Part shown: piece by piece, positions 1 to 21,179 of the stretch
How the letters are laid out: each line of letters opens with the position of its first letter
How positions within the stretch are numbered: the stretch's first letter is position 1
Assembly (NCBI GenBank): GCA_018889975.1
Contig: CP076546.1
Location: 4,619,001-4,683,000, forward strand
Direction of reading: 5' to 3'
From: Bacillus sp. NP157
GTDB taxonomy: Bacteria; Pseudomonadota; Gammaproteobacteria; Xanthomonadales; Rhodanobacteraceae
DNA length: 64,000 nucleotides
Position numbers and translations under genes: made by a program
Notes under the pieces: model-generated
Told to the model about the DNA's origin: nothing
Databases searched by the model: none
Seen by the model: the letters and a program-made list of their open reading frames with translations, nothing else

Positions 1-2
1 AG

Positions 3-3000
3 CTCGCGGTCAACGACGGTGGCAACCACGGTTCGCGTCCGGATCGCCCGACGCTCGACCTCGACGGTACCAACAACGACACCAACGTCGCCGGCGCGAA
101 GGGCGACCAGTACGGCTACGCCGATGGCGATGGCGGCACCTCGAACGCGCTGGTCACCACCCGCGTGTTCGACTTCACCGTCAACAGCGGTACCCAGGTC
201 AGCGAAGCGGGCCTGGCCAACAACGACGCGAGCAAGGGCGTCGACGGCACCGAGAGCTTCGCGCTGTTCAACGATCTCTCCACCGTCACCCTCGGCAACC
301 CGGCCGACGGCGCGGGCCACTCGGTCACCCTGACCCTGGCCCAGCTGCAGGACCTCGCCGCGCTGCCGGAAGCGCAGCGCACGATCCAGACCGCCAACGG
401 CACGCTGGTCGTCACCGGTTACACGCCGGGTGCCGACAACGCGCACGGCACGCTCACGTACCACTACGTGTTGAACGGTGCGGTGAGCCAGCCGGGCGCC
501 ACCAGCAGCAACGACGTCATCGCGATCTCGACGAAGGACAGCGCTGGCTTCACCGACAACGGCACGATCACCGTCAACATCGTCGACGACACGCCGACCG
601 CGCGTGCCGACACCGGCAGCGCGAACGAAGACAGCACCGCGGCCACGGGCAATGTCGTCACGGGCGATGCGAACGGTGGCGTCGCCGACCGGATCGGCTC
701 GGATACCACCACGACCCCGGTGACCGGTGTCGCCGCGGGCAACACCGGCGGCACGGTGAGCGGCCGCGTGGGCACGGGCGTCACCGGCCAGTACGGCACG
801 CTGATCCTCAATGCCGACGGTAGCTACAGCTACACCGTCGACAACAACAACGCCACGGTGAACGCGCTGAAGGACAACCAGTCCATCACCGACACCTACA
901 CCTACACGATCACTGACGCCGACGGCGACACCAGCACCACCACGCTGACCATCACCATCCATGGCCACACCGACGGCACGCCGTCGATCGTGCCGGTGGA
1001 TGGCAACGGCGCGACGGCAGGGCAGGTGACCGTGCACGAGTCCGGCCTGGTCGACCACGATGGCAGCCAGTCCGCCAGCGGCACGATCACGCTGAGCGCG
1101 CTGGACGGCCTCAGCAGCGTCACCATCGGCGGCACCACGCTGACCACCGCCCAGCTCAATGCCTTGTCGAACAGCGCGACGGTGAGCATCACCACGCCGC
1201 AGGGCACCCTGGTGCTGAAGGGCTTCACCGCCACGACCTCGGTCGGCGGCGTGCCCACCGCGGGCACGCTCAGCTACACCTACACGCTGGATCGCACCGT
1301 CACCCAGGCCGGCACCGATAGCGTCGAGAACATCTCGCTGCAGGTGACCGACGCCGGCGGCGGCACGTCGGCCGGCACGCTCACGGTCGACATCGTCGAC
1401 GACGCCCCGACCGCACACGCCGATACCGGCAGCGTGAACGAAGACGGCGCGGCCCTCACCGGCAACGTGGTCTCGGGTACGACGGGCGGCAGCGTCGCCG
1501 ACCGGATCGGCGCCGACACCACCACGACACCGGTCTCCGGCGTCGCCGCGGGCAACACCGGCACGCCGGCGAGCGGTAGCGTCAACACCGCGGTCGCGGG
1601 CCAGTACGGCTCGATCGTGCTCAAGGCCGACGGTAGCTACACCTACACGGTGGACAACAACAACGCGACGGTGAACGCGCTGAAGATCGGTGATTCGCTC
1701 ACCGAGGTCTACACGTACACGATCACCGACGCAGACGGCGACAGCAGCACCACCACGCTGACCATCACCATTCACGGCCACACCGACGGCACGCCGTCGA
1801 TCGCGCCGGTGGATGGCAATGGCGCGGCGACCGGCCAGGCCACCGTGCATGAGTCCGGCCTCGTCGACCACGACGGCAGCCAGGCGACGACCGGTACGCT
1901 GACCGTCACGGCGCTCGATGGCCTCACCAGCGTCACCATCGGTGGCACCACGCTGACCACGGCCCAGCTCAACGCGCTGTCCAGCGGCTCGCCGGTGAGC
2001 ATCACCACGCCGCAGGGCACCCTGCTGTTGACCGGCTTCACCGCGACCACGACGGTCGGCGGCGTGCCGACGGCCGGCACGATCAGTTACGGCTACACGC
2101 TGGATCGCACGGTGACCCAGGCCGGCACGGAAAGCGTCGACAACATCGGCCTTAGCGTGAAGGACGCCGGCGGCGGTACCTCGACCGGCACCCTCGTCGT
2201 CGACATCATCGACGATGCCCCGACCGCGCATGCCGACACCGGCAGCGTGAACGAAGACGGCGCGGCCCTCACCGGCAACGTGGTCGCGGGTGACACCGGT
2301 GGTGGCGTGGCCGACCGGATCGGCGCCGATACCACCACGACCCCGGTGACCGGCGTCGTCGCGGGCACGCCGGGCGGCAACGCCAGCGGCAACGTGGGCA
2401 CGGCGCTGGCCGGCCAGTACGGCTCGCTGACCCTGAACGCCGACGGCAGCTACAGCTACGCCGTCGACAACGCGAATGCGACGGTCAACGCACTGAAGGA
2501 CGGTCAGACCCTGACCGAGACCTACACCTACACGATCACCGACGCCGATGGCGATCGCAGCAGCACCACGCTCACGATCACCATCCACGGCCACAGCGAC
2601 GGCACGCCGTCGATCGTGCCGGTGGACGGCAATGGCGCGACCGCCGGCCAGGCCACCGTGCACGAGTCGGGCCTGGTCGATGGCGACAACAGCCAGGTCA
2701 CCAGCGGCACGCTCACGCTGACCGCGGCCGATGGCCTGGCCAGCGTCACCGTCGGTGGCACCACGCTGACCACGGCGCAGCTCAACGCGCTGTCCAGCGG
2801 CTCGCCGGTCACGATCCACACGCCGGACGGCACGCTGCAGCTCACCGGCTTCAGCGCGACCACGACGGTCGGCGGCGTGCCCACCGCGGGCACGCTCAGC
2901 TACACCTATACGCTCGACCACACCCTCACCCAGGCCGGCACCGACGCGACCGATACGATCGCGCTGGGCGTCACCGATGCGGGCGGTGGCACGGCGACCG

Positions 3001-6000
3001 GTAACCTCGTCGTCGACATCGTCAACGACACCCCGACCGCGCATGCGGATACGGGTGACGTCAACGAAGACGGCGCCGCGCTCACCGGCAACGTGGTCTC
3101 CGGCACCACCGGCGGCAGCGTCGCCGACCGCGTCGGCGCCGATACCACGGCCACCCCGGTCACCGGCGTGGCGGCAGGCAACAGCGGCGGCACCACCGTC
3201 AGCGGCCAGGTCGCCAGCGGCGTCGCGGGCCAGTACGGCACGCTCACGCTCAACGCCGACGGCAGCTACAGCTACGCCGTGGACAACGCCAATGCGACGG
3301 TCAATGCGCTGAAGACCGGGCAGACCCTGACCGACACCTACAGCTACACGATCACCGACGCCGATGGCGACCGCAGCACCACCACGCTGACCATCACCAT
3401 CCATGGCCACACCGACGGCACGCCGTCGATCGTGCCGGTCGATGGCAACGGCGCCGTCGCGGGGCAGGCCACCGTGCACGAGTCGGGCCTGGTCGATGGC
3501 GACGGTAGCCAGGCCACCACCGGCACCCTCACGGTGACGGCGGCCGACGGCCTCACCAGCGTCACCATCGGTGGCACCACGCTCACCGTCGCGCAGCTCG
3601 ATGCGCTGACCAGCGGCACCCCGGTGACGATCCACACGCCGGACGGCACGCTGGAGCTCACCGGCTTCGCCGCGACCACGACGGTCGGCGGCGTGCCCAC
3701 CGCGGGCACGATCAGCTACGCCTATACGCTCGACCATGCGGTCACCCAGAACAGCGCCGACAGCACCGACAGCATCGCGCTCAGCGTCACCGACGCGGGC
3801 GGTGGCACGTCGACCGGCAACCTCGTCGTCGACATCGTCAACGACACCCCGACCGCGCATGCGGATACGGGTGACGTGAACGAAGACGGCGCGGCCCTGA
3901 CCGGCAACGTGGTCGTGGGTGACGCAGGCGGCGGCACGGCCGATCGCATCGGCGCCGACGCCACGACCACGCCGGTGACCGGTGTCGTCGCCGGCACGCC
4001 GGGCGGCGCGGCCAGCGGCAACGTCGGCAGCGGCGTCACCGGCCAGTACGGCACGCTGACGCTCAACGCCGACGGCAGCTACAGCTACGCGCTCGACAAC
4101 GCCAACCCGACGGTCAACGCGCTGAAGGACGGCGAGATGCTGACCGATACCTACACGTACACGATCACCGATGCGGATGGCGACGCGAGCACCACCACGC
4201 TGACCATCACCGTGCACGGCCACACCGACGGCGCGCCGTCGATCGTGCCGGTGGACGGCAACGGCGCGACGGCCGGCCAGGCCACCGTGCACGAGTCGGG
4301 CCTGGTCGACGGCGATGGCAGCCAGTCGGTCGATGGGTCGATCACGCTGACCGCGGCCGATGGCCTCACCAGCGTCACCATCGGTGGCACGACGCTGACC
4401 ACGGCGCAGCTCGACGCGCTGTCCAGCGGTTCCCCGGTGACCATCCACACGCCGGACGGCACCCTGGTGCTGACCGGCTTCCAGGCCACGGCGACCAACG
4501 GCACGGTGCCGACGGCCGGCACGCTGGCGTACACCTATACGCTCGACCACGCGGTGACCCAGAACACCACCGACAGCACCGACACGATCGCGCTGAGCGT
4601 GACCGATGCCGGCGGTGGCACGTCGACCGGCAACCTCGTCGTCGACATCGTCAACGACACGCCGACGGCGCACGCGGATACGGGTGACGTGAACGAAGAC
4701 GGCGCGGTGCTCACGGGCAACGTCGTCGCCGGCGATGCCGGTGGTGGCCACGCCGATCGCATCGGCGCCGATGCCACCGCCACGCCGGTGACCGGTGTCG
4801 TCGCGGGTACGCCGGGTGGCGCCGCCAGTGGCAACATCGGCAGCGGTGTCGCCGGCCAGTACGGCACGCTGGTGCTGAATGCCGACGGCAGCTACAGCTA
4901 CGCGGTCGACAACGGCAACGCCACGGTCAACGCGCTGAAGGACGGCCAGACGCTGACCGACACCTACACCTACACGATCACCGACGCGGACGGCGACAGC
5001 AGCACCACCACGCTGACGATCACCATCCACGGCCACACCGACGGCGCGCCGTCGATCGATCCGCACGACGGCAACGGCAATGGCAACGGCACCAACGCGC
5101 TGGGCGATACCACCGTGTGGGAAGCGGGCCTGACCCCGGATGGCCCGGCGGGCGCAAGCAAGACGGCGACCGACACCATCGCGATTTCCGCGCCGGATGG
5201 CCTGGTCAGCATCACCGTCGGCGGGCGCACGCTCAGCGCGGCCGAACTGGCTTCGCTCAGCAGCGGCTCGCCGGTCTCGATCGTCACGCCGAACGGCAGT
5301 ACGCTGGAACTCACCGGCTTCGTGCCGGACGGTTCCATCGGTGGTCGGCCGACCGGCGGCACGCTGTCGTACACCTACACGCTGGGTGGCACGCAGTCGC
5401 AGCCGGGCAGCGACCATGGTTCGGACAGCATCGCGCTTAGCGTCACCGACGCGGGCGGCGGCACGGCCAACGGCAGCCTCGTCGTCGACATCATGGACGA
5501 TGCGCCGACCGCGCACGCCGACCATGCCGACGTCAACGAAGATGGTGCGGCCGTCACCGGCAACGTCGTCACCGGCACGGGCGCGGGCAGCGCCGCCGAT
5601 CGCATCGGCGCCGACGCCACGGCCACGCCGGTCTCCGGCGTCGTCGCCGGCAACAGCACGGGTCCGGTCAGCGGGCACGTGGGCAGTGGCGTCGCCGGCC
5701 AGTACGGCACGCTGGTGCTCAACGCCGACGGCAGCTACAGCTACGCGGTGGATAACGCCAACACCGTGGTCAACGCGCTGAAGGACGGCGACACGCTCAC
5801 CGAGACCTACACTTACACGATCACGGATGCCGACGGCGACAGCAGCACCACCACGCTGACCATCACCATCCACGGCCACACCGACGGCACGCCGTCGATC
5901 GTGCCGGTGGATGGCAACGGCGGTGCGACGGGGCAGGCGACCGTGCACGAGTCCGGCCTGGCCGACCACGACGGCAGCCAGCAGACCACGGGCAGCATCG

Positions 6001-7334
6001 CGATCACCGCGGAAGACGGCCTCGCCAGCGTCAGCGTCGGCGGCACCACGCTGACCACGACCCAGCTGGGCCAGCTCTCCGGCGGCACGCCGGTGACGAT
6101 CCACACGCCGGACGGCACCCTGGTCCTGACCGGCTTCCAGCCGACCGCGACCAACGGCAGCCTGCCGACCGCGGGCACGCTCACCTACACCTACACGCTG
6201 GACCACCCGGTCACGCAGAACACGCCGGACAGCGTCGACAACATCGCCCTGGTGGTGACCGACGCGGGCGGCGGCCGTTCCACCGGCACGCTGCAGGTCG
6301 ACATCGCCAACGATGTGCCGACCGCCCACGACGACAGCGCGACGATCCTGCAGGACGCCGGCCAGACCTCGGCCAGCGGCAACGTGTTCAGCGGTGGCGA
6401 CGGTGCCGATCGCATCGGCGCCGACGGTCCCGCCGCGGGCGGTCCGGTCACCGGCGTCGTCTCGACCAACACCGGGCATGCCGGCAGCATCGGCAACGCC
6501 AGCGCGGGCGAGTACGGCACGCTGGTGCTCAACGCCGACGGCACGTATTCGTACAAGCTGGATACGTCCAACCCGAAGGTCGCGTCGCTCGACACCACGC
6601 GCACGCTTACCGAGGTGTTCACCTACACCATCACCGATGCCGACGGCGACACCAGCACGGCGACGCTCACGCTGACGATCCACGGCATCACGCCGCCGAT
6701 CCAGGCCCGCGAAGGCGACCAGATCTTCCCGCTGTCGCACGAGTGGCCGGAGCGCGACATCCGCCAGGGCTGGACCCCGGGGCTGTTCGTGGTGCCGGGC
6801 GTGGAAGCCTCGCAGCGCGACACGCTGCGCTGGCAGGACGCCTATGTCACCGGTCGCTACAACCCGGCCGAAGGTCCGCTGCTCGCCCAGGATCCGTCCA
6901 ACGTGCAGTACGTGCTGACCGATGGCGTGGCCTTCGCCCAGGCCGTGCAGGCCGAAGCCGATGCGCGCTCGCGGGTCAGCCTCAACGACTTCGCGCTCGA
7001 CCACAGCCCGCTGTGGGATGACTTCTCGCCGTTCGCGGTGGATGCGATCCCGCACGGCACGCATCGCCACGAAGCCGACCACGAGCAGGGCAACCACCAC
7101 CGGCCCGACGCCCCGAAGGGCGAGCACAAGGCCAATGGGCACAAGGCGGCACACGCCGCCGAGCGCCAGGCCGAGGTCCAGATCCATCTCCCGCAGGTGC
7201 CCGTGGCCATCCACGTGCCGCCACCGGCAAGCACGCCGGGCGGTGCCCCTTCGCTGACCGCGCAGATCGCGGCCATGGCGAAGCAGGGCGCCTCCACGCT
7301 TGCCGCCGTGCCCACCGAACAGCCACGCCACTAA
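3..7334 (+). CDS. Giant VCBS-repeat adhesin, 5' end outside window
   Basis: The frame is open from the first bases, so the gene starts upstream; about 2443 residues are visible. It consists of a tandem array with a period of about 813 bp (270-280 residues). Each unit holds a beta-rich module starting near H(T/S)DG.PSI (positions 966, 1782, 2592, 3408, 4221, 5037, 5877) and a VCBS module (ADTG.VNEDGA, YGTL.LNADGSYSY, YTITDADGD). Eight VCBS modules are present, ending near 6690. VCBS proteins are typically large secreted or surface adhesins. The last ~210 residues are not repetitive: a Trp/Asp-rich stretch (FALDHSPLWDDFSPF), a His-rich segment (HRHEADHEQGNHHRP) and a Pro/Ala tail. I see no RTX nonapeptides of the kind common in type I substrates. 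TolC/HlyD/M50 genes follow after 26 bp, so export by that set is inferred. Confidence 0.9.
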   Translation, partial: LAVNDGGNHGSRPDRPTLDLDGTNNDTNVAGAKGDQYGYADGDGGTSNALVTTRVFDFTVNSGTQVSEAGLANNDASKGVDGTESFALFNDLSTVTLGNPADGAGHSVTLTLAQLQDLAALPEAQRTIQTANGTLVVTGYTPGADNAHGTLTYHYVLNGAVSQPGATSSNDVIAISTKDSAGFTDNGTITVNIVDDTPTARADTGSANEDSTAATGNVVTGDANGGVADRIGSDTTTTPVTGVAAGNTGGTVSGRVGTGVTGQYGTLILNADGSYSYTVDNNNATVNALKDNQSITDTYTYTITDADGDTSTTTLTITIHGHTDGTPSIVPVDGNGATAGQVTVHESGLVDHDGSQSASGTITLSALDGLSSVTIGGTTLTTAQLNALSNSATVSITTPQGTLVLKGFTATTSVGGVPTAGTLSYTYTLDRTVTQAGTDSVENISLQVTDAGGGTSAGTLTVDIVDDAPTAHADTGSVNEDGAALTGNVVSGTTGGSVADRIGADTTTTPVSGVAAGNTGTPASGSVNTAVAGQYGSIVLKADGSYTYTVDNNNATVNALKIGDSLTEVYTYTITDADGDSSTTTLTITIHGHTDGTPSIAPVDGNGAATGQATVHESGLVDHDGSQATTGTLTVTALDGLTSVTIGGTTLTTAQLNALSSGSPVSITTPQGTLLLTGFTATTTVGGVPTAGTISYGYTLDRTVTQAGTESVDNIGLSVKDAGGGTSTGTLVVDIIDDAPTAHADTGSVNEDGAALTGNVVAGDTGGGVADRIGADTTTTPVTGVVAGTPGGNASGNVGTALAGQYGSLTLNADGSYSYAVDNANATVNALKDGQTLTETYTYTITDADGDRSSTTLTITIHGHSDGTPSIVPVDGNGATAGQATVHESGLVDGDNSQVTSGTLTLTAADGLASVTVGGTTLTTAQLNALSSGSPVTIHTPDGTLQLTGFSATTTVGGVPTAGTLSYTYTLDHTLTQAGTDATDTIALGVTDAGGGTATGNLVVDIVNDTPTAHADTGDVNEDGAALTGNVVSGTTGGSVADRVGADTTATPVTGVAAGNSGGTTVSGQVASGVAGQYGTLTLNADGSYSYAVDNANATVNALKTGQTLTDTYSYTITDADGDRSTTTLTITIHGHTDGTPSIVPVDGNGAVAGQATVHESGLVDGDGSQATTGTLTVTAADGLTSVTIGGTTLTVAQLDALTSGTPVTIHTPDGTLELTGFAATTTVGGVPTAGTISYAYTLDHAVTQNSADSTDSIALSVTDAGGGTSTGNLVVDIVNDTPTAHADTGDVNEDGAALTGNVVVGDAGGGTADRIGADATTTPVTGVVAGTPGGAASGNVGSGVTGQYGTLTLNADGSYSYALDNANPTVNALKDGEMLTDTYTYTITDADGDASTTTLTITVHGHTDGAPSIVPVDGNGATAGQATVHESGLVDGDGSQSVDGSITLTAADGLTSVTIGGTTLTTAQLDALSSGSPVTIHTPDGTLVLTGFQATATNGTVPTAGTLAYTYTLDHAVTQNTTDSTDTIALSVTDAGGGTSTGNLVVDIVNDTPTAHADTGDVNEDGAVLTGNVVAGDAGGGHADRIGADATATPVTGVVAGTPGGAASGNIGSGVAGQYGTLVLNADGSYSYAVDNGNATVNALKDGQTLTDTYTYTITDADGDSSTTTLTITIHGHTDGAPSIDPHDGNGNGNGTNALGDTTVWEAGLTPDGPAGASKTATDTIAISAPDGLVSITVGGRTLSAAELASLSSGSPVSIVTPNGSTLELTGFVPDGSIGGRPTGGTLSYTYTLGGTQSQPGSDHGSDSIALSVTDAGGGTANGSLVVDIMDDAPTAHADHADVNEDGAAVTGNVVTGTGAGSAADRIGADATATPVSGVVAGNSTGPVSGHVGSGVAGQYGTLVLNADGSYSYAVDNANTVVNALKDGDTLTETYTYTITDADGDSSTTTLTITIHGHTDGTPSIVPVDGNGGATGQATVHESGLADHDGSQQTTGSIAITAEDGLASVSVGGTTLTTTQLGQLSGGTPVTIHTPDGTLVLTGFQPTATNGSLPTAGTLTYTYTLDHPVTQNTPDSVDNIALVVTDAGGGRSTGTLQVDIANDVPTAHDDSATILQDAGQTSASGNVFSGGDGADRIGADGPAAGGPVTGVVSTNTGHAGSIGNASAGEYGTLVLNADGTYSYKLDTSNPKVASLDTTRTLTEVFTYTITDADGDTSTATLTLTIHGITPPIQAREGDQIFPLSHEWPERDIRQGWTPGLFVVPGVEASQRDTLRWQDAYVTGRYNPAEGPLLAQDPSNVQYVLTDGVAFAQAVQAEADARSRVSLNDFALDHSPLWDDFSPFAVDAIPHGTHRHEADHEQGNHHRPDAPKGEHKANGHKAAHAAERQAEVQIHLPQVPVAIHVPPPASTPGGAPSLTAQIAAMAKQGASTLAAVPTEQPRH

Positions 7335-7360
7335 TCGCGCGCCACAAGGATTGATGACCG

Positions 7361-9280
7361 ATGTCCCACCTTCGACCGATGAGCACTTCCATGCTGCGTT
7401 CCACGCCTCGCTTTGCGCCCCTCGCTGCCTCCGTCGCCCTCGCCGTATTCCTCGCCGGTTGCGGCGCGGTGAAGCCGAAGCCGCTGACCCACGACGAGAT
7501 CGCCACGCGGGTGACTAACGATAAGCAGGCGATGTACAAGGACCAGGAGCCGGTCAACGGCGCCCTGACCCTGTCCGACGTCATGGCGCGTTCGCTGAAG
7601 TACAACCTCGACTACCGCCTGAAGCTGATGGAGACGGCGCTGTCGAAGGGCCTGCTCGACGTCTCCGAGCTGGACATGCTGCCCAAGCTCACCGCCGACG
7701 CCGGTTACCGCTGGCGCAGCAACGACTCGGGCGGCACCAGCATCGGCATCCAGGACCGGGTGATCTCGCTGCGTCCGTCGACTTCCGAAGAGCGCGTGCA
7801 CTACCTCGCCGACGCCACCCTGTCGTGGGACGTGCTCGACTTCGGCCTGAGCTACTACCGCGCGAAGCAGCAGGCCGATGACGTCAACGCCACCGACGAG
7901 CGTCGCCGCAAGGTGCTGCAGAACATCGTGCAGGACGTGCGCGATGCCTACTGGCGTGCGCTCGGTGCGCAGCGCCTGCTGGCCGAAAGCCAGACTGTCG
8001 CCGACAACATCCAGTCCGCGCTGGAGAAGACCCGCCAGGCCGAACGCGCCGGCGTGCTGCCGCCGGTGGAAGGCCTCGAATACCAGCGCGCCCTGCTCGA
8101 CGCGATGACCCTGGTCACCGAGAAGCGCCAGGAAATGGAGATCGCCAAGCGCGAACTCGCCGCGCTGATGAACCTCGCCCCGGGCGCCGACTTCACCCTG
8201 GCCGACACGCGCGAATCCGCGCTGTCGCAGGTGCCGTCCAACATGGACGAGCTGGAGCGGATGGCGCTGGAACAGCGTCCCGAACTGCGTGAGGAAGACT
8301 ACAAGGCACGCGTCGACGCGATCGAGGCGAAGAAGCAGATCGCCGCGCTGTTCCCCAACCTCAACCTGTTCGGCGGCGTCGGCTACGACTCGAACAAGTA
8401 CCTGTACAACGACAACTGGTCGCAGGGCGGCGTCAGCATGTCGATGAACCTGATCCGCCTCGCCGGCATCCCGGCGATCAAGCGGACCAACGAAGCGCGG
8501 ATCAAGGTGGACGATGCCCGCCGCATGGCGCTGAGCATGGCCGTGGTCACCCAGGTGCGCGTCTCGGTCGAGCGTTACAAGCTGGCCGTGTACGACCACC
8601 AGCTCGCCGCCGAATCGGCCAGCGTCGACCAGCGCCTGGCCAGCGTCGCCCGCGCCGGTTCGAACAACCAGCTCACCAGCGACCTCGAGACGCTGCGCAC
8701 GCAGGCCCGCTCGCTAGTCTCGCGGTTCCAGGAAGCGTCCTCGTACGCCGCCGCGCAGTCGGCCTACGGCCGCGTGCTGAACTCGGTCGGCATCGACCTG
8801 ATGCCCGAGCAGGTCGCCGGTAGCGACGTCGCCACCCTGTCGCGCGCGATCCAGGCCAGCCTGGTCGATGGCGAGAAGCACGTGTTCACCCAGAACGCGG
8901 ACGTCGCCGTGGTCGATCGCCCGATCCAGCTCAGCGTCACCGGCCTGCCGGCCCGCGTCGACAGCGACAGCGTGCGCAGCTCGGTCGCCAACGTGCTGAC
9001 CGGCAACCGCCTCGTGCTCGGCGGCGGCAACGACAGCCTGCGCGTCGACCTGCATTACAGCGCCTCGCCGGGCAAGGCCACCTCGCGCGCCCAGTGGGAC
9101 GTGAACGTGCAGGACAACGCCGGCAAGCACCTGCTGACCCAGAGCTACCTCAGCTACCAGCCCAACGAAGTGAGCACCCGCTCGGTCAGCGCGCTGGCCG
9201 AAGCCGCCGTGCTCTCGGTGCTGGAGAAGCTGCGCGAACTCAGCGCCGCACCGGCCACCGCTTCGGCCAACCAGCCGTAA
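7361..9280 (+). CDS. TolC-family outer membrane efflux lipoprotein
   Basis: 639 residues. The N terminus has a lipoprotein signal peptide: a hydrophobic run ending in LAGC with the lipid-attachment Cys at about residue 34. Residues ~60-470 read as a TolC/OEP protein with long amphipathic helices (for example ALSKGLLDVSELDMLPKLTADAG and repeated Ala/Glu/Gln-rich helices), as in NodT-type outer membrane channels. After ~residue 480 there is an extra ~150-residue domain not expected in plain TolC (VDRPIQLSVTGLPARVDSD, then a segment ending LSVLEKLRELSAAP). AAGGA lies about 11 bases before the ATG; ATGs at 7379 and 7391 are alternatives. It is the first gene after the adhesin and probably forms the outer membrane exit duct for the adaptors that follow. 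Role inferred from family and position. Confidence 0.85.
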   Translation: MSHLRPMSTSMLRSTPRFAPLAASVALAVFLAGCGAVKPKPLTHDEIATRVTNDKQAMYKDQEPVNGALTLSDVMARSLKYNLDYRLKLMETALSKGLLDVSELDMLPKLTADAGYRWRSNDSGGTSIGIQDRVISLRPSTSEERVHYLADATLSWDVLDFGLSYYRAKQQADDVNATDERRRKVLQNIVQDVRDAYWRALGAQRLLAESQTVADNIQSALEKTRQAERAGVLPPVEGLEYQRALLDAMTLVTEKRQEMEIAKRELAALMNLAPGADFTLADTRESALSQVPSNMDELERMALEQRPELREEDYKARVDAIEAKKQIAALFPNLNLFGGVGYDSNKYLYNDNWSQGGVSMSMNLIRLAGIPAIKRTNEARIKVDDARRMALSMAVVTQVRVSVERYKLAVYDHQLAAESASVDQRLASVARAGSNNQLTSDLETLRTQARSLVSRFQEASSYAAAQSAYGRVLNSVGIDLMPEQVAGSDVATLSRAIQASLVDGEKHVFTQNADVAVVDRPIQLSVTGLPARVDSDSVRSSVANVLTGNRLVLGGGNDSLRVDLHYSASPGKATSRAQWDVNVQDNAGKHLLTQSYLSYQPNEVSTRSVSALAEAAVLSVLEKLRELSAAPATASANQP

Positions 9281-9337
9281 GCGGTCGCCACGACCACCGC
9301 ACCACACCTGCCTGACCCTGGAAAGACCCGGAAGACG

Positions 9338-10093
9338 ATGAAGATGTTGAAGTACTTGCCCGCGATCCTCGCTTTGGGTTTCGCCGGCACGCAGGGCGCG
9401 CTCGCCCAGGCGGCGCCTGCCGCGGCTACGCAGGCGCCGGTGCGTTTCCTGGTCGTCGCCGACCAGGAAAGCCCGATGTCCGCGGCGATCCCGGGCCGCG
9501 TGGCGAAGGTGTACGTGCAGCTCGGCGACAGCGTGGCCAAGGGCAAGACGATGGTCGCGTTCGATTGCAGCGACCTCGCCGCACGTCGCGAAGCGGCCGA
9601 TGCCGAGTACAAGGCCGCGCAGCTGCGTTACGAAGCCAAGGCTAAGCTGCAGGGCCTGCAGTCGGCCGCCGCGCTGGAAGTGGAACTGACCGCGGCCGAC
9701 GTCAATCGCACGCGCGGGCAGATGCGGATCATCGAGGCGCAGATCGGCCAGTGCCGTTTCGTCGCGCCGTTCGACGGTCGCGTGGCCCGCGTGCACGTGA
9801 AGGAAGGGCAGGGCGTGGCCGCGGGTGCGCCGGTGATCGACTTCGTCGGCACCGGTACGCCGAAGGCGCGCCTCAACGTGCCCTCTAACTGGATCGGCTG
9901 GCTGAAGCCGGGCGCCCACCTCGACGCCACCGTGGACGAGACCGGCGCGCATTACCAGCTGACCGTGACCCGCCTCAGCGGCCGCGTCGACGCGGTGAGC
10001 CAGACCATCGAGATCGAAGCGGATTTCCAGGGCGACACCAGCCGCGTGCTTCCGGGCATGAGCGGTCGCGCCACCCCGGGCAAGCAGGGCTGA
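9338..10093 (+). CDS. Short periplasmic adaptor (HlyD/RND-MFP type)
   Basis: 251 residues with a clear Sec signal peptide (MKMLKYLPAILALGFAGTQGA, cleaved near ALA-QA). The mature part has the barrel-sandwich/lipoyl layout: a first half (IPGRVAKVYVQLGDSVAKGK), a short coiled hairpin (EAADAEYKAAQLRYEAKAK) and a second half (RFVAPFDGRVARVHVKEGQG). It is shorter than most HlyD/AcrA adaptors (~350-450 aa) and has no TM anchor apart from the signal peptide, so it is probably a soluble or loosely attached periplasmic protein. The next gene begins 4 bases after its stop, so the genes are probably co-transcribed. It is one of three lipoyl-domain proteins in the cluster. Confidence 0.85.
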   Translation: MKMLKYLPAILALGFAGTQGALAQAAPAAATQAPVRFLVVADQESPMSAAIPGRVAKVYVQLGDSVAKGKTMVAFDCSDLAARREAADAEYKAAQLRYEAKAKLQGLQSAAALEVELTAADVNRTRGQMRIIEAQIGQCRFVAPFDGRVARVHVKEGQGVAAGAPVIDFVGTGTPKARLNVPSNWIGWLKPGAHLDATVDETGAHYQLTVTRLSGRVDAVSQTIEIEADFQGDTSRVLPGMSGRATPGKQG

Positions 10094-10097
10094 GCGA

Positions 10098-11477
10098 ATG
10101 AGTGCCCAACCCGGCAACGCCGCTGCCGCCGCGTCGCGGTTCTACGCGCTGGCCGCGCGCACCGAGGCGGCGACCAACGCCGCCGAGCTCGGCTTCGTCG
10201 CCTGCAACGACACCCGCCTGCTGGTCGACTATCGCCAGGCCGCGCTGGTCGCCTTGTCGGCCGCGCGTCCGCCGCGACTGGCCGCGCATTCCGGCCTTGC
10301 CGACGCCGACCCGAATACGCCTTACGCGCTGTGGCTGTCCAGCGTCACGCGCAGGATCGCCACGCAGTGCACCGAGCTGCCCGCGGCCGCGCGCGTGTTG
10401 CCGCTGTCGCCGGAGATGCTCGGCGACGAACTCGCCGCGGGCTGGGCCGAGTGGTTCCCCGCGCACGTGTGGGTGCTGCCGCTGGCCGGCCCGGACGGCA
10501 CGCCCGCGGCCCTGCTGTTCCTCGGCCGCGACGACCCATGGCCGACGACGCTGACCGCCGACGACGCCGAATACGCGTTGCTGCAGATCGCCGGCCTGTA
10601 CGGCTATGCGTGGTGGTCGCTGGTGGCACGTCCCTCGCGCGTGCAGCGCGTGTGGCAGGCCGCGACGCGTGGGCACCGCCTGCGCTACATCCTCGTCGGC
10701 CTGCTCGTGCTGCTGCTCCTGCCCGTGCGCGAATACACCCTGGTGCCGGCCGAGATCATCTCGACGCACAGCCAGGTGATCGCCTCGCCACGCGAAGGCG
10801 TGATCCGGCGCATGGTGGTGCTGCCGAACGCCTCGGTGAAGTCGGGCCAGGTGCTGGCCGAGCTGGACGACACCACGCTGCGCAACAAGCTCGCCGTGGC
10901 CCAGGCCGAACTGGCCACCGCCAATGTCGAGATGCACCAGGCCGCGCAGCAGGCGATCGAAAACCAGAACGCCAAAGCCGACCTCGGCATGGCCGAAGGC
11001 AAGCTGCACGAGCGCGAGGTCGACGTCGCCTCGCTGCAGCGTGAAGTGCAGAAGCTGGAGATCCGCGCACCGGTGGACGGCGTGTTTGTTTACTCAGATC
11101 CGGATGACTGGGCCGGCCGTCCGGTGCAGACCGGCGAACGGATCGGCCTGCTCGCCGATCCGCGCACGCTGGGCGTACGCGCGTGGGCACCGGTCGGCGA
11201 GCCGACCAACCTCGAAGACGGCGCGCCGATGACCGTGTTCCTGAAGGTCGCGCCGCTCAGCCCGGTGGATGCCCGTCTCGACTACGCCGGCTACCAGCCG
11301 GTGGAAGCGCCGAATGGCGTCGCCAGCTACGTGCTGCGCGGCACGATCGCCGGCGACCATGCCGCCGCGCGCATCGGCCTGCAGGGCACCGCGCGTGTCT
11401 CCGGTCGCTGGAGCGTGCTCGGTTACCTGATGCTGCGCCGTCCGCTCGCCACCGTGCGGGCCTGGCTCGGCCTTTGA
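10098..11477 (+). CDS. GAF-like / TM / HlyD-type adaptor protein
   Basis: 459 residues. Residues 1-~190 form a soluble, presumably cytoplasmic domain that reads like a GAF fold (ACNDTRLLVDYRQAAL near the start; LPLAGPDGTPAALLFLGR, then a helix with LLQIAGLYGYAW). One TM follows (YILVGLLVLLLLPV, ~195-210), then a HlyD region: half lipoyl domain (VIASPREGVIRRMVVLPNAS), an Ala/Glu coiled hairpin, and the second half (EIRAPVDGVFVYSDPDDWAG). A GAF-like sensor fused to a periplasmic adaptor is unusual and suggests that export is tied to a cytoplasmic signal; that is inference. Upstream spacing is 4 bp, and its stop overlaps the TTG start proposed for the M50 gene. Confidence 0.8.
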   Translation: MSAQPGNAAAAASRFYALAARTEAATNAAELGFVACNDTRLLVDYRQAALVALSAARPPRLAAHSGLADADPNTPYALWLSSVTRRIATQCTELPAAARVLPLSPEMLGDELAAGWAEWFPAHVWVLPLAGPDGTPAALLFLGRDDPWPTTLTADDAEYALLQIAGLYGYAWWSLVARPSRVQRVWQAATRGHRLRYILVGLLVLLLLPVREYTLVPAEIISTHSQVIASPREGVIRRMVVLPNASVKSGQVLAELDDTTLRNKLAVAQAELATANVEMHQAAQQAIENQNAKADLGMAEGKLHEREVDVASLQREVQKLEIRAPVDGVFVYSDPDDWAGRPVQTGERIGLLADPRTLGVRAWAPVGEPTNLEDGAPMTVFLKVAPLSPVDARLDYAGYQPVEAPNGVASYVLRGTIAGDHAAARIGLQGTARVSGRWSVLGYLMLRRPLATVRAWLGL

Positions 11478-13621
11478 ACGCGACGGCCACGGCCGAAGGC
11501 CACGCGACCGGCATGCCGATGCCGGCCGCGCCGCCGCCGTGGCCGGCGCTGCGCGACGAGCTGAAGATCCACCCGGCCGGGCGCAACCGCGACGGCTCGC
11601 CGGCGTGGCATATCGCCGACCCCGTGCGTAACCAGTTTTTCCGCATCGGCTGGCTGGAGTTCGAGATCCTGCAGCACTGGGGCCTCGCCGATCCGGAACG
11701 GATCGCCGAGGCGATCGGCACGAGCACGACGCTGGCGCCCGAGCCGGAAGACGTCGTCGAGTTCGCCCTGTTCCTCAAGCAACAGCAGTTGCTGCGCAAC
11801 GCGCAGATGAAGCCACCCGGCTCGGTATTGCACTGGCTGTTGCAGAACTACCTGTTCATCCGCGTGCCGCTGGTCCGGCCCGAGCGTTTCCTGCGCAAGG
11901 CGTTGCCGTTCGTGCAGTGGATGTTCGGTGCGCGTTTCCTGGTGGCGACGCTGGTCGCCGCGCTGGTCGGCCTGGTCTTCGCCGCCCGCCAGTGGGACCT
12001 GGTCGAAGCCAACCTGCGCGGGGCGATGAGCTGGGATGGCGTGTTCGCCTTCGCTGGCGCGCTGGTCTTCTCCAAGTGCTGGCATGAGTTCGGCCACGCC
12101 TTCATGGCCACCCGCTACGGCGTGCGCGTCGGCCACATGGGGGTGGCGCTGCTGGTGATGTGGCCGATGGCGTACACCGACACCGGCGAGAGCTGGAAGC
12201 TGGAGCGTTCGCAGCGCCGCCTCGCGATCGCCTCCGCGGGCGTGATGGCGGAACTGGTACTCGCCGCGTGGTGCACGCTGCTGTGGTCGTTCGCGCCGGA
12301 GGGTAACTTCCGCAACGCGCTGTTCTTCCTCGGCACCACCGCGTGGGTGTTGACCATCGCGGTGAACGCGAGCCCGTTCATGCGCTTCGATGGTTACTTC
12401 ATCCTCGCCGATGCGATCGACTACCCCGGCCTGCACGAGCGTGCCGGCCGCTGGGCCAAGCGTTGGGTGCGGCGCACCTTCCTCGGCATCGAAGACCCGC
12501 GTCCGGATGCCGTAACGCGCCCGTTCGCCGCCTTCCTTACCGGCTTCGCGTTCACCACGTGGCTATACCGCCTGACCCTGTTCGTCGGCATCGCGGTCGT
12601 GGTGTACCACGCGTTCTTCAAGGCCATGGGCCTTGTCCTGTTCCTCGTTGAAATCGTGACGTTCGTGGTGAGACCCATGCAGCATGAAGTACGGGTGTGG
12701 TGGCATCGCCGCGCCGAGATCCGCTGGAACGTCGCCCGTCGCTGGCTGGCCGGGCTGCTCGTGCTCGGCGTGGTCCTGCTGGTGCCGTGGTCGGGCACCG
12801 TCCGCGGCGACGGCGTGATCGAGGCCGGATTCGAACAACCGGTCTTCACCCCGTTCCCGGCCCAGCTCGATCGCGTGCTGGTCCACGAAGGGCAGGTAGT
12901 GAAGAAGGGCGATGCCCTGTTCGACCTCACCGCACCGGCGCCGCAGGACGATGGCGCGAAGGCCAATGCCTTGCGCGACGCCTACGAGGCCACCGCACGC
13001 GGCGCCGCCGGGCTGGAACGCGACGGTGTCGCCAAGCAGGTCATTGCCGACCGGATGGCCGACCAGTACAACGTGCAGCAGCTGGCCAGTGCCGCCGAAT
13101 TGCATCGCCTGCGCCTGGTCGCCGCCGCCGACAGCGTCGTGCGCGATCTCGACCCCACCTTCCAGGCCGGCAGCTGGGTCTCGCCCGGCGCACGCATGGC
13201 CACGCTTGTGGGTGGCACGCACTGGCGGGTAGAAGCGCTGGTGCCCGAATCCGATCGCGCACGGCTCGCCGTGGGCAGCGAGGCTACGGTTTATCCGAAG
13301 GGTGCGTCGTCGCCACTGCACGGCAAGGTCGTGACCGTCGACGATGGCGCGCTGGAACACCTGCCTAACGTGGCCCTGGCGAAAGAGCACGGCGGCCCGA
13401 TTCCGTTGAACCCCACGGCTCCCGCGAAGGAGCTGCGACCGGCCTCCGTGTGGTATCGCGTGCGCATCGAAGGGGAGGGCGAGGGCCCGGCGAATGGCGT
13501 CACGGCGGCGCAACTGGCCTCCGTGCACATCGTCGGCAAACGCGAGAGCCTCGGCCGGCGCTGGATCGACAGCGCGCTGTTGATCCTGCTGCAGCAGACC
13601 GGCCTCGGCAAAGACGGCTGA
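11474..13621 (+). CDS. M50 metalloprotease fused to HlyD-like region
   Basis: About 715 residues from a TTG that overlaps the previous stop (TTGA); an ATG at 11513 is an equally possible start. The first ~180 residues are soluble. A polytopic M50 (site-2 protease-like) core follows: the zinc motif HEFGH at ~204-208 in a TM helix, and the third ligand region N-A-S-P-x4-D-G at ~298-307. Several further TM segments lead to VLGVVLLVPWSGTV. The C-terminal third is periplasmic and HlyD-like (TPFPAQLDRVLVHEGQVVKK and RVEALVPESDRARLAVGSEA). M50/HlyD fusions occur in peptide-export loci, but here the neighbours are a giant VCBS protein and a TolC lipoprotein with no ABC transporter. It could process the substrate or act as the inner membrane platform. 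The zinc residues are intact, so activity is plausible. Confidence 0.85.
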   Translation: MNATATAEGHATGMPMPAAPPPWPALRDELKIHPAGRNRDGSPAWHIADPVRNQFFRIGWLEFEILQHWGLADPERIAEAIGTSTTLAPEPEDVVEFALFLKQQQLLRNAQMKPPGSVLHWLLQNYLFIRVPLVRPERFLRKALPFVQWMFGARFLVATLVAALVGLVFAARQWDLVEANLRGAMSWDGVFAFAGALVFSKCWHEFGHAFMATRYGVRVGHMGVALLVMWPMAYTDTGESWKLERSQRRLAIASAGVMAELVLAAWCTLLWSFAPEGNFRNALFFLGTTAWVLTIAVNASPFMRFDGYFILADAIDYPGLHERAGRWAKRWVRRTFLGIEDPRPDAVTRPFAAFLTGFAFTTWLYRLTLFVGIAVVVYHAFFKAMGLVLFLVEIVTFVVRPMQHEVRVWWHRRAEIRWNVARRWLAGLLVLGVVLLVPWSGTVRGDGVIEAGFEQPVFTPFPAQLDRVLVHEGQVVKKGDALFDLTAPAPQDDGAKANALRDAYEATARGAAGLERDGVAKQVIADRMADQYNVQQLASAAELHRLRLVAAADSVVRDLDPTFQAGSWVSPGARMATLVGGTHWRVEALVPESDRARLAVGSEATVYPKGASSPLHGKVVTVDDGALEHLPNVALAKEHGGPIPLNPTAPAKELRPASVWYRVRIEGEGEGPANGVTAAQLASVHIVGKRESLGRRWIDSALLILLQQTGLGKDG

Positions 13622-14482: not shown

Positions 14483-17082
14483 ATGGAAGCCAAGAAAGAC
14501 CGTCCGTCCCAGCCCGGCGCCGCGGCCTGGCCGGAAGCCACGATCGAGCGCGGCCCGGTCCGCTTTACCGTGCTGACCCCCGGCTGGTCCGGCTGGAATG
14601 GAGCCACGACGGCGATTTCCGCGATATCCGCACCCAGGTGGTGGTGCACCGGGCGCTGGACGTGCCGCCCTTCCACATCGACGAAGACGACACCACCCTC
14701 GAAGTGGACACCGGCCTGCTGCGCCTGCGCTACACGAAAGACAGCGGTCCGTTCACGGCGGATAACCTCTCGATCCAGCTCCGCGGCCCCGGCGAGGAGG
14801 CCACCTGGCATCCCGGCGACGTGCAGAAGCACAACCTGGGCGGCACCTACCGCACCCTCGACCGCTACGATGGCGACACCTGGCAGGACGGCAGCAAGCT
14901 GCCGCTCGAGGAAGGCCTGATCGCGCGCGATGGCTGGCACCTGGTCGACGATTCGAAGGGTTTCGGCATCGGCGACGACGGCTGGGTGGCCGAGGCGCCG
15001 GAAGGCGATCGGCAGGACTGGTATTTCTTCGGCTACGGCCACGATTTCCGTGCCGCGCTGGCCGACTTCGCCGCGATCGCCGGCCCGCAGCCGATCCCGC
15101 CGCGTTTCGTCTTCGGCTACTGGTGGTCGCGCTACTGGAACTACTCCGACGAGGAACTGCGCACGCTGGGCGCGCGCTTCGAGAAGGAGCGCATCCCGCT
15201 GGACGTGCTGGTGCTGGACATGGACTGGCACACCACGCCGGGCCTGTCCCTGCGCCCCGGCCACGAGCACCACGACGTATTCGGCGAGCAATCCGGCTGG
15301 ACCGGCTACACCTTCAACCGCAGCCTGTTCCCCGACCCCCGCGCGTTCATGCAATGGGCGCACGGCGAGAACCTGCGGATCACCCTGAACCTGCACCCGG
15401 CCTCCGGGGTGATGCCGCACGAAGAGAAGTACGAGGCGATGGCGAAAGCGCTGTCGTGGGATACCTCGACGAAGGCGCCGGTGCCGTTCGAAGGCGCCTC
15501 GCAGCCCTACATGCGCGCCCTGTTCGACACCATCCTGATCCCGCTGCAACGGGACGGCGTGGATTTCTGGTGGCTGGACTGGCAGCAGTGGAAGGAGTCG
15601 AAGGCGTACCCCGGGCTGTCCAACACGTGGTGGCTCAACCATGTGTTCTTCACCGAGATGCAGCGCGAAGACGATCGGCGTGGCTTGATCTACCACCGTT
15701 GGGGCGGGCTGGGTAACCACCGTTACCCGATCGGGTTCTCCGGCGACAGCGTGATCAGCTGGACCTCGCTGGCCTTCCAGCCGCACTTCACCGCGATGGC
15801 GTCGAACGTGTTGTACGGCTACTGGAGCCACGACATCGGCGGGCACACCTTCGACAAGAAGATCCCGCGGCCGGAGCGTCACCTGGAGCCGGAGTTGTAT
15901 GCGCGCTGGATGCAGCTGGGCGTGTTCTCGCCGGTGCTGCGCACGCACTCGGCGAAGGAAGCCAGCCTGCACAAGGAACCCTGGCACTTCGGGCCGCCGT
16001 ACGGCGACGCGGTGTTCGCGGCGATCCGCCTGCGTTACCAGCTCGCGCCGTACATCTACGTGGCCGCGCGCCATGCGTACGACACCGGCCAGTCGATCGT
16101 GCGGCCGATGTACTACCACTGGCCCGAGCACGAAGAGGCTTACACGCATCCCGCGCAGTACATGTTCGGCAACGACATCCTCGTGGCACCGGTGACCACG
16201 CCGGTGGGTGCGGACGGCACGGCCAGCTTCCCGGTCTGGCTGCCGCCGGGCATGTGGTATAGCCGCGACGGCGCCGAGGCGTTCGAGGGCGGCAGGATGC
16301 TCGAGCGCTCGTACACGCTGGAAGAAATCCCCATCTTCGTGCGTCCAGGCAGCGTGGTTCCGCTGTATCCGGAAGGCATGCGCAACCTCGCCACCGTGCC
16401 GGATACGCTGATCCTGCAGGTGTTCCCGGGCGAGGAAGGTTCCACCGCGTTGTACGACGACGACGGCGCCTCGCAGGGTTACCAGCGCGGCGAGTTCGCC
16501 CGCACCAGCGTGCGCAGCCGCCGCGGCGACCGCGCGCATCGCGTGCACATCGACGCGATGGAAGGCGACTACAAGGGCCGGCCGACGACGCGTAGCTATG
16601 TCGTGGAGCTGCTCGACGCAGGTATCCCCGACAGCGTCGAGGTGAACGGCGAAGCGCTGCCGTACAGCGCCGAGCCCGCGCCGCGTACGTGGCTGTTCGA
16701 CACCGCGACGCTATCCATCCGGGTCGACCTCGGGCCGCGACCGGTCAGCCGCACCCAGGACATCGTGGCCCGCTTCGTCCCCGAACACGCCATGCCGCGC
16801 GGCCTGTTGCACCGCATGCGCCGTGCAGCGGATGCGGTCACCTACCTCAAGCAGGTGTGGGGCGACATCTCGGCCCTGCCCGACGACGTCGACCTCGCCG
16901 GACAGACGGCACGCGTGCTCGCCTACGCCGTCGAAAACGGCGACGACGCCGGCCGCGCCCAACGTTTCAGCGACGCCGTACGCGCCTTCGAATCCCGCTT
17001 CATCGGCCTTCCCGCCAGCGTCGACGCCACCCCCATCGACGACGCCTTCAAACGCACCTTCACCGACCTGCTAGGACGGTAG
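14483..17082 (+). CDS. GH31 family glycosidase, split by a one-base frameshift
   Basis: Glycoside hydrolase family 31 (alpha-glucosidase/alpha-xylosidase or transglucosylase type), ~866 residues if repaired. The ATG at 14483 opens a frame encoding ATIERGPVRFTVLTP; it then reads nonsense after the C5 run at 14577-14581. The sensible continuation (RLVRLEWSHDGDFRDIR) is in the other frame from 14581, so one C appears to be missing. The downstream frame alone could start at GTG 14638. GH31 marks are clear: FGYWWSRYWNYSDEEL, VLVLDMDWH, the nucleophile region DFWWLDWQQW (Asp ~366) and the acid/base region FSGDSVISW (Asp ~422), followed by C-terminal beta domains (PIFVRPGSVVPLYP). No secretion signal is seen. 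It could be a sequencing error, a pseudogene, or a slip site; the long intact frame downstream favours a recent event or an error. Confidence 0.85.
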
Positions 17083-17091
17083 CGGTGTCCT

Positions 17092-17215
17092 GTAGGAGCG
17101 CGCCCGCGCGCGACATCTTTTCGCGAAAACCCCCACATGCTGTCAATCCAACACATGGATTGATGCCGGATGATGGGGCGTCACGAAAACCCATCGCGCG
17201 CAGGCGCGCTCCTAC
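17092..17215. repeat. Inverted pair of REP elements
   Basis: A forward REP (17092-17113, GTAGGAGCGCGCCCGCGCGC) and a reverse copy (17193-17215, ending GCGCGCTCCTAC) face each other across ~80 bp, a REPIN-like doublet. The reverse copy lies inside or just upstream of the start of the binding-protein gene. Any transcript would fold into a long hairpin. Confidence 0.85.
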
Positions 17216-18116
17216 AGTGATTGCGTTGCTTCTTTTGTTCCTCCTAACCACCACCACCCAGGCCCAGACCCAACCCCCCGTCCGCGTCGGCTCCAAAGCC
17301 GACAACGAAGGCGCCTTCCTCGGCCAGGTGGTGTTGCAGGTGTTGCAGAACGCGCACATCCCCGTCGTCGATCGCACCCAGCTGGGCCCGACCTCGATCG
17401 TCCGCCGCGCCTTGCTCGGTGGCGACCTCGATGTCTATCCCGAATACACCGGCAACGCGGCGTTTTTCTTCCACCGCGAAACCGACCCCTCGTTCCGCGA
17501 CGCAGCCAAGGCCTATGCACTGGCCGCCTCGCTCGACCGTGTGAACCACGTGACCTGGCTCACGCCCGCCCCGGCGGATAACCACTGGGCGATCTGCGTG
17601 CGCAAGGACATCGCGGCGGCCAACCGCCTGGCTTCGCTGCCCGATTTCGCACGCTGGGTGAATGCTCGAGGCGACGTGCTGCTGGCGGGTTCGGCGGAGT
17701 TCGTCGAAAGCGACGCGGCCTTGCCCGCGTTCCAGCGGGCCTACGGCTTCACCCTGAAGGGCGATCAGCTGCTGGTGCTGGCCGGGGGCGACACCTCGGC
17801 GACGATCAAGGCCGCGGCCGAAGGGATCACCGGCGTCAACGCCAGCATGGTCTACTCCACCGACGGTGCCATCGCGGTGACCGGCCTGGTGGTGCTGGAC
17901 GATCCAAAGCACGTGGAGATGGTCTACCAGCCGGCACCGGTGGTGCGTGACGAGGTGTTGCAACGCTATCCGGCGATGCGCGGCGCATTGCAGGCCGCGT
18001 TCGCGCCGTTGACCGTAGAGCGCCTGCGTGCATTGAATGCGCGGACGCAGATCAACGGGGAAGAGGCGTCGAAGGTGGCGGCGGATTACCTGCGCGGGGA
18101 GGGCTTGGTCAAGTGA
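17163..18116 (+). CDS. yehZ: Periplasmic binding protein of YehZ/OsmF-type betaine/choline transporter
   Basis: 317 residues from ATG 17163. The n-region RKPIARRR is basic and is encoded by the REP element; the hydrophobic core VIALLLLFLLTTTT ends before QA-QTQ. A GTG at 17217 just after the REP is the alternative but would give an uncharged signal peptide. The mature part fits the OpuAC-like fold (VRVGSKADNEGAFLGQVVLQ, GGDLDVYPEYTGNA, GVNASMVYSTDGAIAVTGLV). The gene order binding protein-permease-ATPase-permease and the protein sizes match the E. coli YehZ-YehY-YehX-YehW set, a low-affinity glycine-betaine importer of stationary or osmotic stress. The substrate is inferred, not shown. The stop overlaps the next start (GTGA). 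Confidence 0.8.
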   Translation: MPDDGASRKPIARRRAPTVIALLLLFLLTTTTQAQTQPPVRVGSKADNEGAFLGQVVLQVLQNAHIPVVDRTQLGPTSIVRRALLGGDLDVYPEYTGNAAFFFHRETDPSFRDAAKAYALAASLDRVNHVTWLTPAPADNHWAICVRKDIAAANRLASLPDFARWVNARGDVLLAGSAEFVESDAALPAFQRAYGFTLKGDQLLVLAGGDTSATIKAAAEGITGVNASMVYSTDGAIAVTGLVVLDDPKHVEMVYQPAPVVRDEVLQRYPAMRGALQAAFAPLTVERLRALNARTQINGEEASKVAADYLRGEGLVK

Positions 18117-21128: not shown

Positions 21129-21179
21129 GAGCGCGCCTGCGCGCGATGGGGTTCACGGCGACCCCCATCACGCGCAGGG
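21124..21179. repeat. REP doublet with truncated right arm
   Basis: A full forward REP (21124-21145) is followed after a short loop by CATCACGCGCAGGG (21166-21179), the inner half of an inverted REP whose outer half (CGCGCTCCTAC) is missing. The break falls 5 bases from the pepO stop codon. Confidence 0.7.

Follow-up and report, generated by a model that had tools for sequence, protein, structure and literature searches.

Organization of the locus

The DNA analysed here is a stretch of 64,000 nucleotides (C1:4619001-4683000, hereafter the window) from the 4.88 Mb single-contig genome of Bacillus sp. NP157. Within its first 13.6 kb, the end of a giant adhesin gene is followed, on the same strand, by four genes coding for a TolC-type outer-membrane factor (OMF), two adaptors (MFP1 and MFP2) and a fusion of an M50 protease with a third adaptor (MFP3). 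We refer to the four genes as the module and to the giant protein as its cargo, and consider the module as a candidate secretion system.

Coordinates of all features are given in Table 1. The adhesin gene (stop at 7334) is separated from the OMF gene by 26 bp, OMF from MFP1 by 57 bp and MFP1 from MFP2 by 4 bp, while the fusion gene overlaps that of MFP2 by 4 bp. Gene order, strand and all of these distances are as given in a first-pass annotation of the same DNA. Should this overlap be real, the fusion protein starts with TTG at 11474; its translation also shows an ATG at 11513. The OMF was assigned to the OEP family, all three adaptors to HlyD_3, and the fusion protein unites Peptidase_M50 and HlyD_3 in one chain. 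MFP1 also exceeds the cut-off of the RND_mfp model TIGR01730 (104.3 versus 94.9 bits). The term "GAF-like", previously applied to the MFP2 protein, is weakly founded: in an alignment of 25 MFP2 homologues, GAF was matched by a single member (expect value (E) 0.095). The fusion protein begins with a domain that is likened below to recognition elements (RREs) of ribosomally synthesized and post-translationally modified peptides (RiPPs).

Table 1. Positions in the window of the giant adhesin gene, the four module genes and their parts.
Feature	Position	Strand	Basis and remarks
Giant VCBS/T1SS-143-repeat adhesin, C-terminal part	1..7334	+	complete gene G000:C1 4613225-4626334
OMF, TolC/OEP outer-membrane factor with lipobox LAGC	7361..9280	+	PF02321, E 2.9e-33; lipobox by eye
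MFP1, short secreted periplasmic adaptor	9338..10093	+	PF13437, E 2.7e-18; Sec-type signal by eye
MFP2, N-terminal domain of ~190 aa, one transmembrane helix, HlyD-type adaptor	10098..11477	+	PF13437, E 7.9e-12
Transmembrane helix of MFP2	about 10671-10751	+	hydropathy; residues 192-218
RRE-like/M50/MFP3 fusion protein	11474..13621	+	PF02163 and PF13437; AlphaFold2 model; 36-member alignment
RRE-like N-terminal domain, three strands then three helices (predicted)	11537..11803	+	residues 22-110; AlphaFold2 pLDDT 93.7
HEFGH zinc-protease motif	12083..12097	+	residues 204-208; H204, E205 and H208 invariant (36/36)
NASPFMRFDG, second M50 motif with presumed zinc ligand Asp306	12365..12394	+	D306 invariant (36/36)
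MFP3, barrel-sandwich/HlyD adaptor part of the fusion	12839..13351	+	PF13533, PF13437

The first-pass annotation correctly recognized a VCBS adhesin, but the protein was incomplete there because the window edge cuts its gene. With its start 5.8 kb before the first position of the window, the complete gene codes for 4,369 aa. VCBS and T1SS-143 repeats were detected, and the BapA/Bap/LapF model NF045619 is matched at 343.2 bits (cut-off 180). Close to the N-terminus, at about residues 18-29, lies the leader motif ALEPRQMYDGAA. It is followed by a DUF4347 domain (PF14252; residues 108-255; E 7.6e-44; 149.8 bits versus a gathering cut-off of 24.6), in which the only cysteine of the entire protein, C205, is found. 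Leader and DUF4347 are both encoded before the window begins and were thus out of sight of the first-pass annotation. No Sec signal is evident in the adhesin, and by eye the leader does not have the shape of a signal peptide. Since the pattern GGxGxDxxx of repeats-in-toxin (RTX) proteins occurs just once over the 4,369 aa, RTX repeats are effectively lacking, as had been supposed from the incomplete gene.

Module and cargo in other genomes

The first-pass annotation had proposed to look for the four-gene order, and for modules devoid of a large repeat protein, in other genomes. Scanning of contigs representing one genome per species revealed at least 548 stretches encoding a relative of the M50 fusion, the best 80 of which were kept as related loci. 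All four genes occur in the same order in 70 of these loci; of the remaining ten, several lie on short contigs or are laid out differently. The arrangement thus recurs in many bacteria. Directly upstream of OMF, a repeat-type open reading frame (ORF) of at least 500 aa is present in 62 of 65 testable loci, i.e. those with at least 900 nt before OMF, repeat type being defined by composition. The three failures are L018 (an upstream ORF of 1,522 aa that does not satisfy the rule), L053 (906 nt upstream) and L089. In L043, L073, L076 and L083 a giant ORF is located after the M50 gene instead. Modules standing without a large repeat protein are therefore not common.

Cargo and module are also linked at the level of domains. 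DUF4347 is present in 48 of 50 module genomes versus none of 14 control genomes. It lies on the contig of the module itself in 40 of the 50, and 39 of these 40 have the DUF4347 frame immediately next to the module, contigs being matched by length and ends estimated to a few hundred bases; the one failure, L047, has a DUF4347 frame of just 550 aa. Nine of the 50 genomes fall outside the adjacency count, with DUF4347 on other contigs or absent (G014). Among 274 genomes of the class, 22 have both DUF4347 and the fusion, nine DUF4347 alone and 16 the fusion alone.

The M50 fusion was further noticed in 59 plasmid records, including 18 from Escherichia and eight from Citrobacter. On one Citrobacter plasmid with IncF and IncY replicons (L174, NZ_CP026237.1, 2319-22064), the module is situated between insertion sequences, together with an ORF for DUF4347 and a giant one of Ig-like type, which are annotated as separate neighbouring genes.

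A conserved N-terminal motif in the cargo

Just before DUF4347, the cargo proteins share the motif L-E-P/Q/A-R-x-L/M-F/Y-D-G-A. Among 40 DUF4347 proteins of module genomes, some of them encoded away from the module, 35 match its strict pattern and 39 a relaxed one, which itself requires the Glu and the Arg; the fortieth (L125) has LAPRILFSAD. Positions independent of the pattern agree as well: Ala follows FDG in 37 of the 39 and directly precedes the motif in 32, and Pro and Arg are found seven and eight residues before it in 28 and 26, respectively. Judged by its sequence, the motif is a variant form of the LEPR-XLL motif (NCBIfam NF012209, LEPR-8K). Several related module cargos exceed the cut-off of this model, and the window cargo represents a LEPRxxYDGAA variant.

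Genomes with the LEPR motif were found to carry the M50 fusion far more often than expected. Searches of 398 genomes of the phylum, with E cut-offs of 0.001 for LEPR-8K and 1e-30 for the M50 fusion and two M50 candidates fully scored per genome, detected LEPR-8K in 40, the fusion in 90 and both in 39 (9.0 expected, Fisher 9e-28). At genus level, all 23 LEPR genera carry the fusion (5.1 expected). A second sample, 198 genomes from the phylum of G019 (the genome of L036) and centred on a module genome, contains five LEPR genomes, three of them with the fusion (0.2 expected, Fisher 6e-4).

DUF4347 was considered as the shared export signal and rejected: the L100 cargo has LEPR only, and six of eight DUF4347 proteins from genomes without a fusion match lack LEPR. 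L100 adjoins its module and possesses LEPR without DUF4347, and its genome, G274, is devoid of any DUF4347. Beside the module of L020 (genome G008, where DUF4347 is absent), the cargo has a LEPR match below cut-off; in G014, the frames with LEPR matches are short or look unrelated. Of these cargo features, it is the N-terminal LEPR motif whose occurrence follows that of the machine.

The eight proteins come from the class sample, where nine of 31 DUF4347 genomes have no fusion match at 1e-40; a sub-cut-off fragment from G118 was set aside. Four of them (L160, L162, L163 and L167) start with a hydrophobic stretch resembling a Sec signal, as judged by eye and hydropathy, and have no LEPR. Two (L161, L164) have neither, and two (L165, L166) contain a LEPR-like motif; L165, L166 and L167 are short contigs. 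Hydropathy over 12 residues is 0.41 for the window leader and 1.27 on average (maximum 2.01) for the leaders of relatives, so that two of the four Sec-like starts, scoring just 1.91, do not exceed the most hydrophobic leaders. The contrast between LEPR and Sec-like starts among DUF4347 proteins suggests that LEPR serves in lieu of a signal peptide.

As for DUF4347 itself, an alignment of 55 domains shows His162, and likewise Cys205, conserved in 53; the two are a candidate dyad of a clan CD cysteine peptidase. Peptidase_C80, a family of this clan, matches 12 of 40 members at E up to 1 (best 2.7e-4). With the lone cysteine of the cargo at this position, DUF4347 is a likely candidate autoprotease. 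A PDB sequence search with the domain returned mostly designed proteins. One chain named DUF4347 domain-containing protein (9qpe, chain G) matched the DUF4347 profile at E 0.003.

Two further LEPR matches were recorded in passing. In L168 (13746-14696), a 316-aa protein with LEPR and DUF4347 is encoded within the operon, which also has a separate repeat ORF of 1,278 aa. A LEPR-8K match at G375:C115:112865-112924 lies within an open frame of 19,427 aa.

The M50 fusion protein

AlphaFold2 modelled the full fusion protein with a predicted local distance difference test score (pLDDT) of 87.3. The N-terminal domain of 89 aa is predicted to adopt a winged-helix fold. When its model was compared with known structures by Foldseek, ranks 1-3 were occupied by leader-peptide-bound TbiB1 chains (5v1u, 5v1v) and ranks 4-5 by the sactipeptide enzyme 5why. 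We take these chains to be RiPP recognition elements, and the titles of 5v1u and 5v1v name leader-peptide complexes. By predicted fold, the N-terminal domain of the M50 fusion thus resembles leader-binding RREs.

Both motifs of site-2-type M50 proteases, HExxH and NxxPxxxxD, are present in the protein and conserved in an alignment of 36 members, consisting of the window protein and proteins of 35 of the 80 loci. Among 22 further members, HExxH as well as the Asp motif is found in all 22, the latter as DG in 16 and DA in six. Foldseek matches of the MFP3 part include MacA, MexA and EmrAB-TolC chains.

Search for a linked ABC exporter

No ATP-binding cassette (ABC) exporter is encoded in the window or in the 20 kb upstream. 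The absence of such a gene next to the module, noted in the first-pass annotation for the piece of DNA it covered, hence extends to the upstream region where the same annotation had recommended looking for a type I exporter. Of the two findings named there as refuting, an exporter immediately upstream and modules commonly lacking a large repeat protein, neither was made, which supports the earlier suggestion that an ABC component is dispensable for the set. Assignment to the type I subfamilies also fails: the module proteins reach 25.4-35.8 bits with the HlyD model TIGR01843 (cut-off 208.65) and 46.5 bits with the TolC model TIGR01844 (cut-off 225.15).

Only one ORF in the window and the 20 kb upstream, 18973-20286, has both Walker A and LSGGQ patterns; read from its neighbours, it is the ATPase of an osmoprotectant importer, and window positions 17000-21130 read as genes of an osmoprotectant-type ABC importer. 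Translations of the genes upstream of the adhesin point to unrelated products (a LysR-type regulator, an aldo-keto reductase and a major facilitator superfamily (MFS) protein).

Tblastn searches of the 80 loci with two ABC exporters, limited by contig extent, yielded matches to ATPase parts only, in six loci (L021, L036, L037, L052, L054 and L066), and these were rejected as exporters. Two ABC ORFs located after the module were likewise dismissed, one being ABC-F-like with ABC_tran_Xtn and CTD (L106), the other an ATPase only (L115).

A possible export route and its alternatives

We find it fairly probable that the four genes constitute a dedicated ABC-independent machine for export and processing of the adjoining giant protein. 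Synthesized in the cytoplasm, the cargo would carry at its N-terminus a leader with (R)P..HALALE(P/Q/A)R.LFDGAA as its core. The RRE-like domain of the M50/MFP3 protein would bind this leader and present it to the zinc site of M50 within the membrane, where it would be clipped or held. MFP3, fused to M50, the membrane-anchored MFP2 and the periplasmic MFP1 would form an adaptor ring opening the TolC-like channel, and the chain would pass to the cell surface in one step. DUF4347, with its possible likeness to C80 cysteine proteases, would probably act later, as an autoprotease or a retention plug. More tentatively, we propose that such modules may represent a widespread undescribed secretion system, in which a LEPR leader is read by an RRE-M50-adaptor fusion that replaces the ABC exporter as inner-membrane platform and cooperates with two more adaptors and a TolC-type channel; leader reading known from RiPPs would here be used for protein secretion.

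Several observations weigh against this proposal. Neither an energy source nor a translocation pore was identified. The window cargo scores 11.4 bits with NF012209, below the cut-off of 17, although this is the joint best place in its own genome; the motif in this protein therefore rests on likeness to closer relatives. The P values for co-occurrence overstate independence, since the sampled genomes are related, and in the phylum of G019 the M50 fusion is missing from two LEPR genomes, G788 and G841. Foldseek E-values of the top five chains are modest (0.013-0.19), PqqD-type Pfam models match none of the 36 M50 fusion members, and PDB sequence searches with the RRE-like domain gave chance matches only. 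Because of the modest E-values and the lack of an agreeing Pfam model, the RRE likeness is a statement at the level of fold. RTX features are also met with among LEPR proteins: the L172 cargo has two pattern matches, and a giant LEPR-XLL protein of Vibrio, about 8,000 aa long and described as novel in a passage that names no export route, carries C-terminal RTX and serralysin domains (PMC10868602). RTX parts of this kind suggest that type I export applies to some LEPR proteins at least. Finally, an LssB-type exporter exceeds its cut-off in 22 of 46 module genomes.

This last finding bears on the idea that the energy comes from an ABC exporter, of type I or MacB-like, whose gene lies at another place in the genome, M50 and adaptors being accessory; the first-pass annotation had raised the possibility of such a remote exporter. 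RTX parts in some LEPR proteins would fit it. The genome of the window contains five PF00664 genes, the nearest 1.55 Mb from the locus, and a HlyB-type exporter (1038 bits) 1.77 Mb away. The HlyB gene is, however, followed by its own HlyD gene and a gene for an RTX protein with HemolysinCabind repeats, a separate type I system (L008:5911-15999). PrtD and HlyB types were searched for in 16 of the 24 module genomes without LssB, the other eight being left out; four have PrtD and one, that of the window, HlyB. The remaining 11 have no LssB, PrtD or HlyB over cut-off, MacB-type pumps lying outside the search. They include G002, a Luteibacter relative with matches of 78-82% in its module genes, and G274, a genome on a single contig. 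In seven of the 11, none of the HlyB matches listed reaches the first 120 model positions, i.e. they are MsbA-like only; longer matches, still below cut-off, occur in G001, G023, G049 and G050 and may represent bacteriocin-type exporters. With an exporter accompanied by its own partners in one genome and none of the three types over cut-off in 11 others, the idea is weakened, and three adaptors in an operon without an ABC partner would be odd. We regard such a remote exporter as distinctly improbable.

The cargo might instead cross the inner membrane through SecYEG by means of an atypical leader, with the module only processing it and carrying it on from the periplasm across the outer membrane, and M50 acting like a leader or signal peptidase. 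Half of the eight DUF4347 relatives from genomes without a fusion match have Sec-like signals, which makes passage through Sec probable for proteins of this kind. In addition, the leader region of relatives is mildly hydrophobic and overlaps the two weakest Sec-like starts, and the operon encodes no other inner-membrane pore. The window leader is nevertheless not hydrophobic and not shaped like a signal peptide, the RRE-like domain fused to M50 suggests leader recognition by the module itself, and a chain of 4,369 aa would need to stay unfolded in the periplasm. A two-step route of this kind appears unlikely to us. We see a very slim chance that M50 is a regulated release protease, in a role like that of LapG, which cuts free an adhesin held by its N-terminus in the TolC-like channel. 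DUF4347 could then be the plug, but the absence of an exporter would be left unexplained, and the RRE-like domain, presumably cytoplasmic because it precedes the first membrane helix, would meet the nascent leader rather than the exported chain.

Comparison with known systems

An account of the system proposed here was not found in the open literature searched, with few subscription papers and no bioRxiv preprints, and may be in print elsewhere. The same search gave no export route for giant proteins with the LEPR motif. LEPR-XLL proteins (NF012209) share the motif near the N-terminus of giant proteins, and their family record names no function. Very large bacterial ORFs are found among them (open frames of up to 19,427 aa), and the link between motif and machine offers a testable export route.

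Type I secretion of large adhesins (LapA, BapA, SiiE) is similar in that a giant repeat adhesin is encoded beside a TolC-type channel and HlyD-type adaptors. The locus described here differs: an ABC exporter is not linked to it, the adhesin lacks an RTX array and shows an N-terminal motif that is conserved, and the adaptors number three, one of them fused to M50.

Among M50 proteases, the daptide intramembrane metalloprotease model NF041824 matches residues 50-398 of the window protein (E 2.1e-46), yet the score of 158.8 bits is below the cut-off of 300 and the model, with its 379 positions, is too short to accommodate the adaptor part. The epipeptide protease EpeP (YydH/LiaK) is more distant (NF058609, 18.9 bits, cut-off 225) and acts in Bacillus on a small peptide. 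EpeP is not known to have an adaptor fusion, TolC partner or giant cargo. According to a review, EpeP is believed to both cleave and export its peptide, and its deletion did not fully abolish epipeptide production (PMC10885120). By analogy, this dual role may serve as precedent for a one-step M50 route.

RiPP recognition elements (TbiB1, 5why) resemble the N-terminal 89 aa in predicted fold, whereas the cargo is not a modified peptide. If our proposal is correct, a leader-reading domain of peptide natural products moves into protein secretion. The tripartite pumps MacAB, MexAB and EmrAB-TolC are related through the adaptor fold of MFP3 and through MFP1, which is over the RND_mfp cut-off; in contrast to them, no ABC, resistance-nodulation-division (RND) or MFS pump is encoded among the five adjacent genes. 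A review of tripartite systems names ABC, RND and MFS motors, and an M50 component does not appear in its first 300,000 characters (PMC8277102). A pump-less channel with three adaptors and a protease would, if real, call for revision of the notion that an ABC, RND or MFS motor is indispensable for tripartite secretion.

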